A DNA stretch of 64,000 nt from NCBI RefSeq assembly GCF_024359545.1, contig NZ_JAKQZG010000003.1, positions 62,001 through 126,000 on the forward strand. Direction: 5' to 3'. This DNA is from Jiella marina. GTDB lineage: Bacteria; Pseudomonadota; Alphaproteobacteria; Rhizobiales; Rhizobiaceae. Numbering within the stretch: position 1 is the stretch's first letter; each line of letters begins with the position of its first letter. The translations under genes and the position numbers were made by a program. Positions 34,416 to 40,631 of the stretch are shown in pieces. A model generated the notes under the pieces. The model was not told the origin of the DNA and ran no database searches. It saw nothing but the letters and a program-made list of their open reading frames with translations.

Positions 34416-37400
34416 TCAGGCCGCGTTAAAATACGACTGCAGCGGTCGAACTTCAAGATTGCCTGTCTTGAGGGCGGCAATCGCGTCGGCTGCCGCCACC
34501 ATGCCGGCGAGCGTGGTGTAATACGGCACCTTGTGGATCAGCGCGGCGCGGCGCAGCGAGCGCGAATCCGACAGCGCCTTCGCACCTTCCGTCGTGTTCA
34601 GCACGAGCTGGACCTGGCGGTTGCGGATGGCGTCCTCGATATGCGGCCGGCCTTCCAGCACCTTGTTGATCTTGGTGGCGGGGATGCCGTTTTCGGCGAG
34701 GAAGCGCTGGGTGCCGCCGGTGGCCATGATGCCGAAGCCAAGTTCGGACAGGCGACGCGCCGGAGCCAGCATGCGCTCCTTGTCGGAATCCTTGACCGAC
34801 ACGAACACCGTACCTTCCCGGGGCAGGTCGACGCCGGCGCCGAGCTGCGCCTTGGCGAAGGCGACCGTATAGTCGGTGTCGAGACCCATGACCTCGCCGG
34901 TCGAGCGCATCTCCGGTCCAAGCAGCGTGTCGACGCCCGGGAAGCGGGCGAAGGGAAACACCGCTTCCTTCACCGCGATATGCTTGACGTTATGGGTGTC
35001 GGGCTTGCCGCCATAGGCGTTGAACGCGTCTTCCAGCTTTTCACCCGCCATGATCCGCGCCGCGACCTTGGCGATCGGGCGGCCGATGGTCTTGGCGACG
35101 AAGGGCACGGTGCGCGAAGCGCGCGGATTGACCTCCAGCACGTAGATCTCGCCGTCCTTGATCGCGAACTGGACGTTCATCAACCCGCCGACATTGAGCG
35201 AGCGGGCCAGAGCCTCCGCCTGCCGGGCAAGTTCGTCCGTCATCTCCTTGGAGAGCGTATGGACCGGCAGCGAGCAGGCCGAATCGCCGGAGTGGATGCC
35301 GGCTTCCTCGATATGCTCCATGATGCCCGCAACGAAGCTTTCCTTGCCGTCGGACAGGCAATCGACGTCGACCTCGATCGCATCGGTCAGATAGCTGTCG
35401 AAGAGGAGGGGGTTCTTGCCGAGCAGCGTGTTGATCTGCCCGGTCTTGTCGTTCGGATAGCGCTGCTTGATGTCCTCCGGCACGAGGCCGGGAACCGTGT
35501 CGAGAAGATAGGATTGCAGTGCCTGTTCGGTGTGGATGATCTGCATCGCCCGGCCGCCCAGGACATAGGACGGACGCACCACCAGCGGAAAGCCGATCTC
35601 GCCGGCGACGAGCCGCGCCTGTTCCACCGAGAAGGCGATGCCGTTGTTCGGCTGCTTGAGGTCGAGCTTCGTCAGAAGTCGCTGGAAGCGGTCGCGGTCC
35701 TCGGCAAGGTCGATCATGTCCGGCGCCGTTCCGAGGATCGGGATGCCGTTCTTTTCCAGCGCCTCGGCGAGCTTCAGCGGCGTCTGGCCGCCATACTGAA
35801 CGATGACGCCGACGAGTTCTCCGCTCTCCTGCTCGGCCTTCATGATCTCGATCACGTCCTCGGCCGTCAGCGGCTCGAAATAGAGCCGGTCGGAGGTGTC
35901 GTAATCGGTCGACACGGTCTCCGGATTGCAGTTGACCATGATCGCCTCGAAGCCCGCATCCTTCAGCGCGAAGGCGGCATGGCAGCAGCAATAGTCGAAC
36001 TCGATGCCCTGGCCGATCCGGTTCGGCCCGCCGCCGAGGATGACGACTTTCTTGGCGCTGGAGACCTCCGCTTCCGAGCGCAGGGCGCCGGCGAAGGGGC
36101 GCTCATAGGTCGAGTACATGTAAGGGGTGGGGGAGGCGAACTCGGCGGCACAGGTGTCGATGCGCTTGAACACCGGCTTGACGCCGAGCCGGTTACGTAG
36201 CTCCGCCACTTCCTTCGGTCGCTTGCCGGACAGGCCGGCGAGCCGCGCGTCGGAAAAGCCCATGGATTTCAGGAGACGCAGATTGTCAGCGTCCTGCGGC
36301 AATCCATGGGTCTGGATGCGCTTCTCCGTGTCGACGATCGCCTTGATCTGCGCGAGGAACCACGGATCGATCTTGCAGCCGGCATGGACGTCCTGCTCAC
36401 TCATGCCGAGACGCAGTGCCTGGGCGACCATACGCAGCCGGTCCGGCGTCGGCGTGCCGATCGCGGCGCGGATGGCGTTCTTGTCGTCGTCCTGGCCGAG
36501 GCCGGGGATCTCGATCTCGTCGAGACCGGTGAGACCCGTCTCCAGGCCGCGCAGGGCCTTCTGAAGCGACTCCGCGAAGGTGCGGCCGATCGCCATGACC
36601 TCGCCGACGGACTTCATCGCCGTCGTCAGGATTGGCTCGGCGCCGGGGAATTTCTCGAAGGCAAAGCGCGGGATCTTGGTGACGACATAGTCGATCGACG
36701 GCTCGAAGGAGGCCGGCGTCGCGCCGCCGGTGATGTCGTTTTCGAGTTCGTCCAGCGTATAGCCGACGGCAAGCTTCGCCGCGACCTTGGCGATCGGAAA
36801 GCCCGTCGCTTTCGAGGCCAGCGCCGAGGAGCGCGACACGCGTGGATTCATCTCGATGACCACCAGCCGGCCATTGTCCGGGTTCACCGCGAACTGCACG
36901 TTCGAGCCGCCGGTCTCGACCCCGATCTCGCGCAAGACCGCGATCGAGGCGTTGCGCATCAGCTGGTATTCCTTGTCCGTCAGCGTCAGCGCCGGGGCGA
37001 CAGTGATCGAATCGCCGGTGTGGACGCCCATCGGATCGACGTTCTCGATCGAGCAGACGATGATGCAGTTGTCCGCCTTGTCGCGGACGACCTCCATCTC
37101 GTACTCCTTCCAGCCGAGGACCGACTCCTCGATCAGCACCTCGGTCGTCGGCGAGGCGTCGAGGCCGCCCTCGACGATCTCGAAATATTCCGAACGGTTG
37201 TAGGCGATGCCGCCGCCGGTGCCGCCGAGGGTGAAGGAGGGGCGGATGATCGCCGGCAGGCCGATGAATTCGAGCGCTTCGGCGGCCGCTGCCAGCGCCC
37301 GGCCCATATAGCGCTGCTTGCGCTCCGGCTCGCCGAGCATCCATTCGTGCTCCAGCGCCGCAAGGGCCGCGTCCCGCGCATCTTCCTCGGTGATGTCGCG

Positions 37401-37910
37401 GAAGATCCTGGCGCGCTTTTCCTCGTGCGCCGCGCGGTCTGCGGATTTCGCCTCGCTCGCATTGGCGAGCATCGAACGCGGGGTCTCCAGCCCGATCTTC
37501 GCCATTGCCTCGCGGAAGAGCGAGCGATCCTCGGCCTTGTCGATCGCGTCGGCATTGGCGCCGATCATCTCGACGCCGTAGCGCTCCAGAACCCCCATGC
37601 GGCGCAGCGACAGCGCCGTGTTCAGCGCAGTCTGTCCGCCCATGGTCGGCAGAATCGCGTCCGGCCGCTCCTTGGCGATGATCTTGGCGACCACCTCCGG
37701 GGTGATCGGCTCGATATAGGTGGCGTCGGCGAGATCGGGATCGGTCATGATCGTCGCCGGGTTGGAATTGACCAGGATGATGCGGAAGCCTTCGGCCTTC
37801 AAAGCCTTGCAGGCCTGGGTGCCGGAATAGTCGAACTCGCAGGCCTGGCCGATGATGATCGGCCCCGCACCGATGATGAGGATCGACTTGAGATCGGCGC
37901 GTTTCGGCAT
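34416..37910 (-). CDS. carB: Carbamoyl-phosphate synthase large subunit
   Basis: A 1164-residue subunit that makes carbamoyl phosphate from bicarbonate, ammonia and two ATP for arginine and pyrimidine synthesis. Two homologous ATP-grasp halves are clear: the first opens [20 protein letters not shown], the second [20 protein letters not shown]. The C-terminal MGS-like allosteric domain contains [19 protein letters not shown]. The ATG at 37910 starts the conserved region with GGAAAGAG upstream. carA lies about 1.2 kb upstream on the same strand, separated by an XRE gene and a plus-strand regulatory unit. Confidence 0.98.
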
Positions 37911-38144
37911 TGTCGGCTCTTTCCAGTTTCCAAGCGTGACGAACCGCGCCGCGGGAAGGCGGCCGGATCGGCGGACATGCATGAGGCTGAGGCCGGCTTA
38001 TAGGGAAGGCGAGGGCGCGGCGAAAGGGGGCGCGGAAAAGGTTTGCGGACCCTCCGATGAACTTGCTGTCAGTGCCACTTTCGAGAGGTCTTGGCTCCCC
38101 ATCTCGATCGTACGGGTCCACAGGGTCGCGAGCAGGACTGCGGA

Positions 38145-38459
38145 TCACCCCTCGGCGTTTTCGCCTGCCCTGCCGGCTTGCAACGGAATCACACTCTCGG
38201 CGGGCGCTTCCTCGTCATCTGCCGCCTGATCATGCTTGGTACTGGCGCCGTTGATCGCTCGACCATCATAGCTTTCATAGCCCAGCGCCAGGGCGAGACA
38301 GGCGAGTTCGATGCTCTTCGGGATCTCGACCTTCTTCCCGTCGCGCGCGCCCTTTTCGTAGTATTGGATCACGCGTTTCTTCAAGCCGAGCTTCTCGGCG
38401 GCCTCTTTCTGTTTGAGGCCCAGGCCTTTTCGCCAATCCTTGAAGGTTTGCGGATCCAT
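38145..38459 (-). CDS. Small XRE-type DNA-binding protein
   Basis: A 104-residue protein with a helix-turn-helix in its first half (FKDWRKGLGLKQKEAAEKLG, LKKRVIQYYEKGARDGKKVE), followed by an acidic, probably flexible tail. It resembles XRE/Cro-like repressors. Three near-identical palindromes lie 230-300 bases upstream of its start and may be its operators, but this is inferred from proximity only. No partner toxin gene is visible. Confidence 0.72.
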   Translation of the reverse strand: MDPQTFKDWRKGLGLKQKEAAEKLGLKKRVIQYYEKGARDGKKVEIPKSIELACLALALGYESYDGRAINGASTKHDQAADDEEAPAESVIPLQAGRAGENAEG

Positions 38460-38691
38460 CTATTCACCGGCCTTCCAGCGTCATCATGGCGATCTTCGCC
38501 TGTCAGAAGAGCAATGCGCGTGCGAGCGACGGGTCGTCGCAACGCTCATATCCAATCTTTTCCCATGCGCAAGCGCAAGTCACACGGACTCAAGCTTCAA
38601 ATCGCCAATCGAATCAAGGCGCGCGCCACCTACGCGTTCCACCGGTAAACGAGTATTTTTCGGCCAGAAAGATAGCTGGCAAAACGGAAAA

Positions 38692-38761
38692 GCGCACTGA
38701 GTGCACGAAAACGTGCGCACATCGTGCATGTTTTCTGTTGACCGAAGCGCACAATGTGCAC
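38692..38761. promoter_or_regulatory. Array of three palindromic operators, consensus GCGCAC-N3-GTGCA(C/T)
   Basis: Copies at 38692-38706 (N3 = TGA), 38715-38729 (ATC; last base T) and 38747-38761 (AAT). Starts are spaced 23 and 32 bases, close to two and three helical turns, so all could face the same side. They lie in the gap between the XRE gene and the small ORF at 38861. A -35-like TTGACC at 38737-38742 abuts the third copy. Confidence 0.7.
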
Positions 38762-38860
38762 ATCTTGGTTCGCGTAGAGCAATCGCGAATTCATCTCCGG
38801 GCAGGTTTTGCCGCTTAAGATGAATTCTTGTTGAAACTGTAGCGGAAAGGGTGTGCTGCC

Positions 38861-38998
38861 ATGTTGGCTGATATTCTGGTCGGCCGCTCTTCTTACGGCG
38901 GTGACAAAGACCGCGACGATCTGCACCGTCACGCGACGTTCAGTTGCGGTATTCGGGCGTCGATCAAGAAGTGGCTGAAAATGTTCAGGCTTGCCTGA
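38861..38998 (+). CDS. Possible 45-residue protein with basic C-terminus
   Basis: A short ORF starting MLADILVGRSSYGG and ending ASIKKWLKMFRLA. GGAAAGG lies about 10 bases before the ATG. A 20-bp-stem terminator starts 12 bases after the stop, and an operator array lies about 100 bases upstream, which argues that the region is transcribed on the plus strand. The C-terminus could form an amphipathic helix. No homologue is recognised; it may instead be part of a non-coding RNA. Confidence 0.45.
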   Translation: MLADILVGRSSYGGDKDRDDLHRHATFSCGIRASIKKWLKMFRLA

Positions 38999-39010
38999 AC
39001 CGTTGTGAAG

Positions 39011-39059
39011 ACATGACGGCGCCGCCGAAGGGCAACTTCGGCGGCGCCGTCATGTTTTT
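39011..39059 (+). terminator. Very strong intrinsic terminator (20-bp stem)
   Basis: ATGACGGCGCCGCCGAAG pairs perfectly with its complement at 39036-39053 around GGCAA; two further pairs extend the stem and TTTTT follows. It faces the plus strand, ending just before the convergent carA stop. Confidence 0.93.
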
Positions 39060-39093
39060 CAGGATGCTTGTTTCGGCATGTGGGTGGCCGCCC

Positions 39094-40284
39094 TTAGGCA
39101 GCGGCCTTGTTCCCCTTCGTCTCCGCAATCAGATCGAAGAACCGCTTGAAGAGATAGTGCGAGTCCTGCGGGCCCGGCGAGGCCTCCGGATGGTGCTGGA
39201 CCGAAAAGACCGGCTTGTCCGAGAGCCGAAGACCGCAATTCGTCCCGTCGAACAGCGAGCGGTGCGTCTCCTCGACACCCTCGGGCAGGCTGTCGGCGGC
39301 GACCGCGAAGCCGTGGTTCATCGACACGATCTCGACCTTGCCGGTGGTGAAGTCCTTCACGGGGTGGTTTGCGCCGTGATGGCCCTGATGCATCTTCGCC
39401 GTCTGGCCACCCAGCGCCAGGGCGAGCATCTGATGACCGAGGCAGATGCCGAAGAGTGGCACGCCCTTCTCGATCAGCTTGCGGATCATCGGCACGGCAT
39501 ATTCCCCCGTCGCCGCGGGATCGCCCGGGCCGTTCGACAGGAACACGCCGTCCGGCTCATGGGCGAGGATCTCCTCGGCGCTCGCCGTCGGCGGCATGAC
39601 GATCACCTCGGCGCCGAGGCCGGCCATCAGGCGCAGGATGTTGCGCTTGGTGCCGTAGTCGACGGCGACGATCTTGTAATGCGGCTTGTCGAGATCGGCA
39701 TAGCCCTTGTCCCAGAGCCAGGGCGTTTCCTTCCAGACGGCCGTCTGGCCAACGGCGACATCCTTGGCGAGATCGAGCCCGATGAGGCCCGGCCAGGCCT
39801 TGGCGCGCTCTTTCAGGGCGTCGAGATCGAACTGGCCGCTCGGATCATGGGCGATCACCGCATTCGGCATGCCCTTCTCGCGGATGAGCGCGGTGAGCGC
39901 GCGCGTGTCGATGCCCGACAGCGCGATGACGCCGCGCGCTTTCAGCCATTCGTCGAGATGACCGGCCGAGCGATAATTCGAAGGCGCCGTGACGTCGGCC
40001 CGAAAGATCGCGCCGACGGCGCCGCATGAATTGGCCGGCGTCAGGTCTTCGTGGTCGTCGGCATTGGCGCCGACATTGCCGATATGGGGAAAGGTGAAGG
40101 TGACGATCTGCTTGGCATAGGACGGATCGGTCAGGATCTCCTGATATCCCGTCAGGGCCGTGTTGAAGCAGACCTCGCCCTCGACCGCGCCCTCGGCGCC
40201 GAGGCCGAAGCCTTCGATCACCGTGCCGTCGGCCAGAACGAGGACCGCCGTCGTCTTGCGTTCACTCCAGGCTTCGCCCGCCAT
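39094..40284 (-). CDS. carA: Carbamoyl-phosphate synthase small (glutaminase) subunit
   Basis: A 396-residue subunit that hydrolyses glutamine and channels ammonia to CarB. The N-terminal domain ([39 protein letters not shown]) is followed by a class I glutamine amidotransferase domain with nucleophile Cys281 in [11 protein letters not shown] and the later HPEASPGP. The ATG at 40284 follows AAAGGAG at good spacing; the open frame upstream to 40410 is not conserved-looking. It faces away from the YqeY gene. Confidence 0.98.
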
Positions 40285-40631
40285 GGTGGCTCCTTTCGCT
40301 GGTCGATCGGCTGTGGATATGTCCGGCGTCGTGTTGCCGCGCGCGATGTTGTGATCCCACCACATATCAGCGTCGTGGCAGGTGCAGGCAAGACATCTTG
40401 CGGATTTCAAAGCGTGTCTCTACATCCCCGGCATACCGACGAGCAAGAGCTTGTTCCACGGCGCATGTCGCTGGAGGCCGATGCAAACGGGCGACAACGC
40501 ACCCCGTTTTGCATGATATTTAGCCGCCTGCAGCGCAATTTGGCTTTACGTCGGCTCTCAACAAGTATGCATTACGAGATCAGGCGCGTCCCGACAGATG
40601 CGCCACCGATCGAAACCGGAAGTCAGGCATC
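40285..40631. other. Divergent carA-yqeY intergenic region
   Basis: A 347-base gap that must hold both promoters. I see no gene, terminator or convincing palindrome. GATATT near 40518 is a possible -10 for the plus strand. Confidence 0.4.

Follow-up and report, generated by a model that had tools for sequence, protein, structure and literature searches.

What is controlled by the palindromes that lie between carA and an XRE gene in Jiella marina (Aurantimonadaceae, Hyphomicrobiales, Alphaproteobacteria), and which protein would bind them? The window, i.e. the whole stretch of 64,000 nucleotides that was analysed, carries carB (34416-37982) and carA (39094-40410). Between them lie a gene for a 104-residue XRE protein on the minus strand (38145..38459) and, on the plus strand, three palindromes followed by a short ORF and a hairpin. 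The original prediction saw here an operator array driving a small ORF or RNA, with the XRE protein as a candidate binder. We propose that this is very probably a repressor-controlled gene for a small protein, in which a predicted Aca1-like XRE repressor, seated on the palindromes, would silence the formation of a 45-residue protein.

Operators and predicted promoter in the window

The three exact GCGCAC-N3-GTGCAY sites announced by the original prediction were recovered by a pattern scan, starting at 38692, 38715 and 38747 of the plus strand, at intervals of 23 and 32 bases. The idea that these intervals represent whole helical turns holds for 32 bp (3.05 turns of 10.5) and fails for 23 bp (2.2 turns). 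Operator 1, the distal one (GCGCACTGAGTGCAC, 38692..38706, +), is kept in an alignment of nine sequences (the window and eight close relatives). Operator 2 (GCGCACATCGTGCAT, 38715..38729, +), immediately 5' of the -35 hexamer, is present in most, not all, rows of this alignment, and operator 3 (GCGCACAATGTGCAC, 38747..38761, +), found by both the scan and the alignment, fills the 17-bp spacer of the predicted promoter. The latter reads TTGACC-17-CATCTT, with TTGACC at 38738..38743 (TTGAC being invariant in 9/9 rows) and CATCTT at 38761..38766 (CATATT or CATTCT in relatives), both on the plus strand. The elements that stand out in the alignment are TTGAC, operator 3, the CAT of the -10 hexamer, the ribosome-binding site and the ORF. 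A simple consensus scan of the window listed neither this promoter nor the terminal hairpin, and the promoter call therefore rests on conservation and on the likeness to the promoter of phage JBD30 described below. From the predicted promoter we infer a transcription start near 38773 (+).

When two mismatches were allowed, the number of sites in the window was at chance level (21 found versus 19.07 expected), so that weight is given to the exact sites and to the way they cluster. Of four copies of the core GCAC-N3-GTGC in the 64-kb window, three belong to the operator array, and two core sites within 35 bp were observed in 0 of 200 windows simulated with a first-order Markov model. The fourth core site stands isolated at position 2568. 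The sole other match to YGCGCAC-N3-GTGCR in the same genome was considered as a second target and put down to chance, as it lies inside an open frame, which we take to be lysC. On the minus strand, a promoter-like match (38682-38655; 9/12, 0.3 expected) is found ten bases from operator 1. It is a candidate promoter for the XRE gene, of which autoregulation is possible.

Coding signature of the 45-codon ORF

The 45-codon ORF claimed downstream of the operators was found at 38861-38998 (+). Its ribosome-binding site (GGAAAGGG, 38844..38851, +), of which GAAAGGGTG is invariant among the aligned relatives, sits nine bases 5' of the ATG. The ORF is followed by a terminator-like hairpin that runs into a T-run (39008..39058, +; -46.4 kcal/mol, z -10.3); the 20-bp stem ascribed to it agrees with the 20 Watson-Crick pairs that we counted, the fold reaching 23 pairs (one G-U) once part of the T-run pairs.

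Codon-level conservation, proposed initially as a check on the ORF, disclosed purifying selection. Over codons 1-30, pN/pS was 0.147 for the window versus eight relatives and 0.103 for all pairs, the other two frames giving 3.9 and 1.4 (all pairs). Constraint is weak over codons 31-45 (pN/pS 0.72), and the value for all 45 codons is 0.37. Of the variable columns, 5 fell on the first codon position, 4 on the second and 20 on the third. By this signature the ORF is a conserved protein-coding gene.

We considered the possibility that the transcript acts as a small RNA and that the ORF is incidental. The transcript would be short and end in a strong hairpin, part of its 5' UTR (38793-38821) is conserved in eight sequences, and the whole predicted transcript folds with a z of -6.4, largely from the terminal hairpin. 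Yet the 5' UTR folds no better than shuffles (z -0.93), no match reached the gathering score in a search of 38400-39200 against Rfam (best E 0.029), and the distribution of variable columns, together with a pN/pS of 0.10-0.15 over codons 1-30, indicates a coding sequence. On the latter grounds we rejected the small RNA, which we hold to be extremely improbable; of the initial alternative between a small ORF and an RNA, it is the protein gene that stood.

The encoded 45-residue protein belongs to a family, designated A (MLaDllvgRs...DLHrhAtFsC and a basic tail). In 58 distinct family A proteins, counted after removal of three spurious matches, the H of the core D-[LVM]-H-x-x-A-x-x-x-C is present in 56/58 and its C in 56/58. 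Beyond the core, the proteins have basic tails with a mean net charge of +3.7; in 42 of the 58 these tails appear amphipathic, with a helical moment exceeding that of more than 90% of their own shuffles. Searches of Pfam and NCBIfam with 16 members yielded nothing beyond one chance-level NCBIfam match (E 0.075, 1/16). The protein of the window gave no match in PHROGs and PADLOC scans, nor did a tblastn search of plasmids and phages with a limit of E 1 find one, and its structure model was too weak for use (mean pLDDT 63).

Relatedness of the XRE protein to Aca1

The model of the XRE protein is confident for residues 1 to about 66, which comprise the HTH, and of low confidence for the tail. Among solved structures, its best single-sequence match by phmmer was Aca1 (E 0.0035), with which it shares 36% identity over 58 aa in BLASTP; hhalign of the two gave 96%. 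With the family profile (hmmsearch against the PDB), NE0471 (2auw) came first (E 6.1e-5) and Aca1 next (E 0.0011). NE0471 is an uncharacterised HTH protein of 170 residues, of which the match covers residues 92-141 only. Foldseek searches with the XRE model returned nothing below E 0.001 (best 0.015), many HTH folds scoring alike; Aca1 bound to DNA (7c0g) was second (E 0.018), and the matches included SinR complexed with its small partner SinI. These comparisons point to a relationship between the XRE protein and Aca1, though NE0471 outscores Aca1 with the profile. Three residues are invariant in the XRE family, R29, Q32 and Y33; aligned by eye, they resemble R30, Q33 and Y34, which serve in promoter recognition by Aca2 according to the accessible part of PMC9410881.

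Aca1 binds inverted repeats of the acrIF1-aca1 promoter and represses it, as stated in the portions available to us of PMC9410881, PMC9410906 and PMC8434428. In the acrIF1-aca1 promoter of JBD30, the palindromes GCACACTGTGC and GCACAATGTGC, whose bases were taken from the phage record, lie at a distance of 25 bp (0.03 expected for the stretch), and GCACAATGTGC is identical to the core of operator 3, the 11-mer at 38749-38759. As in the window, a GCAC-N3-GTGC copy occupies the 17-bp spacer (between TTGCGA and TAATCT, hexamers assigned by eye) and a second palindrome lies upstream. An inverted repeat inside the core promoter, the mark of Aca1-type control in JBD30, was therefore found here as well, and the promoter of the phage acr-aca1 operon provides a precedent for a layout of which the original prediction knew no described example.

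The same design, in which an HTH repressor acts on inverted repeats that overlap the core promoter, applies to Aca2, Aca10 and Aca-like regulators without acr genes in the sections of PMC9410906 at hand. The palindrome of Aca10 differs from GCAC-N3-GTGC in the available text of PMC9410881, and SrpA of Pseudomonas aeruginosa was set aside on account of a different palindrome (PMC5945682, in part). Relatives of the XRE protein were detected in 11 phage records, 5 plasmids and 1 viral contig, all of them distant, and the exact palindrome occurred in none of the five loci inspected among these 17.

Co-occurrence and arrangement of the XRE and small genes

Among 61 relatives, 24 had the XRE gene, and the 19 that had the small gene were all among these 24. 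In an order sample of 297 genomes, the small gene was present in 39, the XRE gene in 80 and both in 35, an overlap with a hypergeometric probability of 5e-19 if shared ancestry is ignored. Three of the four genomes of this sample with a small gene and no XRE gene had marginal small-gene matches (E above 1e-4); the fourth, G194, has a clear small gene (E 2.4e-7), no XRE match and no operator nearby. A single copy of the small gene was observed in 37 of the 39 genomes. Profile A1 found no small gene in 45 of the 80 XRE-positive genomes of the order sample. G059 and G053, which it missed, do carry one according to other searches; in the remaining genomes, the XRE protein may serve another purpose, or its partners may have diverged too far.

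The XRE and small genes were divergent at 32/32 named loci and at 29/30 loci of the order sample. The gene carB was on the XRE strand in 29/32 named loci, 23/30 order loci and 16/23 longer loci; some of the misses correspond to short loci or contig ends, which does not apply to L038, L043, L048, L092 and L095. The location at carA-carB, stressed from the outset, is thus a common synteny and not an essential one. The 32 named loci come from Jiella, Aurantimonas, Aureimonas, Fulvimarina, Antarcticirhabdus, Rhodobium orientis, Breoghania and bins labelled as Aurantimonadaceae, Devosiaceae, Cohaesibacteraceae and Rhizobiaceae. At L062 (G133), L064 (G096) and L111, one XRE gene stands next to a tandem pair of family A genes, and each gene of the pair has operators of its own; L111, from Rhodobium orientis, is the same sequence as L064.

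The likeness to acr-aca1 raised the possibility that the small protein is a resident anti-CRISPR protein (Acr), silenced by an Aca as in phages. An Aca1-like repressor and an acr-aca1-type promoter would be expected in this case, and the small proteins vary by lineage under one type of repressor (see below), as do Acrs with Acas in the available part of PMC9410906. Yet Cas1, the marker of the CRISPR types that the count covered, was found in 3/19 small-gene genomes compared with 13/61 relatives, and it is absent from the genome of the window. Its absence from 16 of the 19 small-gene genomes makes a resident anti-CRISPR very unlikely in our estimation. The lack of a plasmid or phage match for the protein of the window in the tblastn search and the constant chromosomal place beside carB in many loci point in the same direction, as does the size of the proteins, 40-45 aa being short for an Acr. 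A gene beside an Aca-like regulator is accordingly not automatically an anti-CRISPR gene. In the portion of PMC9410906 available, 386 of 2599 Aca-like homologues are tied to known or candidate Acrs, and in that of PMC7913775 Rhizobiales are named only for relatives of AcrIC8.

Operators accompany the small gene, also at unlinked sites

Searching related genomes next to the XRE gene, as had been suggested, showed that the operators are conserved there, which supports the XRE protein as their likely binder. A close operator pair was present in 14 of 15 family genomes searched, at the XRE/small-gene locus in 13 of them, and a control pattern in 0/15. The double site that G002 has away from this locus was taken as chance; its own locus contains two sites 56 bp apart, beyond the gap allowed in the pair search. 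A whole-genome search for two close operators was positive in 13/27 XRE-positive and 0/25 XRE-negative genomes, the reversed control pattern giving matches in 3/52. The pair was known beforehand in 10 of the 27 XRE-positive genomes, and the informative part of this result consists of the 25 negatives and of three new matches, in G053, in G448 (a tandem repeat) and in G557 (an unclear site).

We collected 65 promoters, including some from near-identical species. They contained no exact operator in 2 cases, one in 6, two in 34, three in 22 and four in 1. The 81 operator intervals measured 30-34 bp in 60 cases, 19-24 bp in 12 and other values in 9. A TTGxx hexamer preceded an operator by 3-9 bases in 45/65 promoters and was absent there in 20/65.

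XRE loci without the small gene, in G028, G032 and G053, had 0, 0 and 1 operator, respectively, and the pair was absent from all three (G014 and G035, which have weak XRE matches and no operators, were excluded from this count). These data suggest that the operators track the small gene and not the XRE gene. At L039, L042 and L046, which lack the small gene, the divergent neighbour of the XRE gene is an ORF starting with MRW[RK]GRRxS.

In G053, the unlinked pair precedes a 43-codon ORF missed by profiles A1 and A2, whose start, MLNELVLGRALYV, is like that of family A; its promoter comprises TTGAAC, an operator and CATATT, followed by AAGGAGG. G396 carries the gene of another small-protein family, B (see below), on a contig other than that of its XRE gene, with three operators, none being found at the XRE locus; this assembly is fragmented (68% complete), and one stop lies within its XRE match. 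The second small-gene copies of G096 and G133 have operators of their own. The simplest reading of the operators at the unlinked small genes of G053 and G396 is that the small-gene promoter is probably controlled in trans by the repressor. G053 also contains a second double operator (L209, C2:445047), 75 nt before the gene of a larger protein, presumably a secreted VWA protein, which is possibly another target.

We also considered that the small basic amphipathic protein might be toxin-like, i.e. harmful when made, with the XRE protein as its transcriptional guard. Three operators over one promoter would suit such a role, as would tails that are basic (+3.7 on average) and, in 42/58 proteins, amphipathic by the shuffle test. 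Yet the genes are divergent and do not form one operon, as those of type II toxin-antitoxin systems do, and they are unlinked in G053 and G396. The small gene is present as one copy in 37/39 genomes, often in the same place beside carB and with no plasmid or phage match, and constraint on its last 15 codons is weak (pN/pS 0.72). We therefore regard a toxin as unlikely.

Other small-protein families in other orders of the class

In a class sample, the XRE profile matched 25/289 genomes at E 1e-8, the genome of the window included. The other 24 genomes provided 25 XRE loci, of which 13 had an exact operator within 900 bp upstream and 12 had none. Twelve of the 13 operator loci were inspected closely, the 13th, L157, being a near-copy of L155. 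They comprised five with an ORF of about 80 aa (family B), three with one of about 50 aa (family C), two with one of 32 aa (family D), one with one of 85 aa (family E) and one with nothing clear. Judged from its alignment, family B is well supported. Family C is loose, and the ML-hydrophobic start that it has in common with family A may reflect distant kinship; families D and E, built from one or two sequences each, could be wrong. Profile B matched 6/289 genomes, all among the 25 XRE genomes (2e-7), a result to be read with the fact that five of the six supplied the profile and that only G396 was a new find. None of ten B to E proteins passed the cut-off in Pfam, the E protein having a sub-threshold match to EcoEI_R_C (E 0.014). 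In the samples searched, profile A did not pick up families B to E, nor did profile B find any member of A, C, D or E; in the other genomes of a 385-genome class sample, profile A gave four weak matches only (E 6e-4 to 9e-4). In other orders, XRE orthologues thus appear to face other small-protein genes under similar predicted promoters.

This observation bears on the possibility that the small protein is an antirepressor, which would bind the XRE protein and lift repression, creating a self-sustaining switch. The close pairing of the two genes and the occurrence of the SinR-SinI complex among the fold matches are consistent with it. Yet profiles A and B do not cross-find the other families while the HTH stays alike, and XRE genes are retained in genomes where no small gene was detected, which leads us to consider an antirepressor quite unlikely. 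Because other orders pair different small proteins with the same kind of repressor, the small protein probably acts on a target other than the repressor.

Proposed mechanism and relation to acr-aca systems

We propose that each GCAC-N3-GTGC palindrome would be occupied by the XRE protein, presumably in the form of a single dimer. Bound at operator 3, the protein would cover the spacer between the -35 and -10 hexamers, and at operator 2 it would abut the -35 hexamer; RNA polymerase would be kept out and the 45-residue protein would stay off. Removal of the repressor by some signal would open the promoter, yielding a short mRNA that would extend from about 38773 to the hairpin ending at 39058, and the protein would then act on a target. 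Both the binding and the repression of the small gene are inferred from the arrangement of the sites; repression is preferred to activation because an operator lies in the spacer, as in acr-aca1.

The conserved regulatory unit would thus work like acr-aca1, but without its operon and location features. The regulator gene is here divergent, chromosomal and often in the same place beside carB, whereas in acr-aca1 it forms an operon with acr on a mobile element. The promoters here have two operators in 34/65 cases and three in 22/65, and the protein under control does not belong to the known Acrs, 16/19 hosts being without Cas1. In our judgement, the unit represents the acr-aca design in a chromosomal form that comes with new families of small proteins. 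For these bacteria, the accessible portions of the open-licence literature describe neither the small protein nor a pairing of such a protein with an Aca1-like regulator, and those dealing with Aca regulators mention no small-protein partner family like A to E.

A wider reading, possible in our view though doubtful, is that of a class-wide cassette, in which an old Aca1-type repressor and its promoter-operator unit would be loaded with interchangeable small proteins (A to E) inhibiting a non-CRISPR process of host or phage. If this were true, the acr-aca1 unit of phages would be a captured version of a cellular cassette, which bears on the origin of Aca regulators. With this locus, the anti-CRISPR promoter of phages gains a chromosomal counterpart, and unannotated small-protein families come to light, the regulation of which becomes testable. 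The palindrome is specific enough for target prediction, as it led to the unlinked small gene of G053 that the profiles had missed.

Two further sites were noted in the whole-genome search. At L205 (G448, C81:3811), the operator core is part of a 22-bp tandem repeat. L198 (G557, C162:27657) and position C18:27709 of G454, from one genus, have a similar double GCAC-N3-GTGC site, with no clear small gene.
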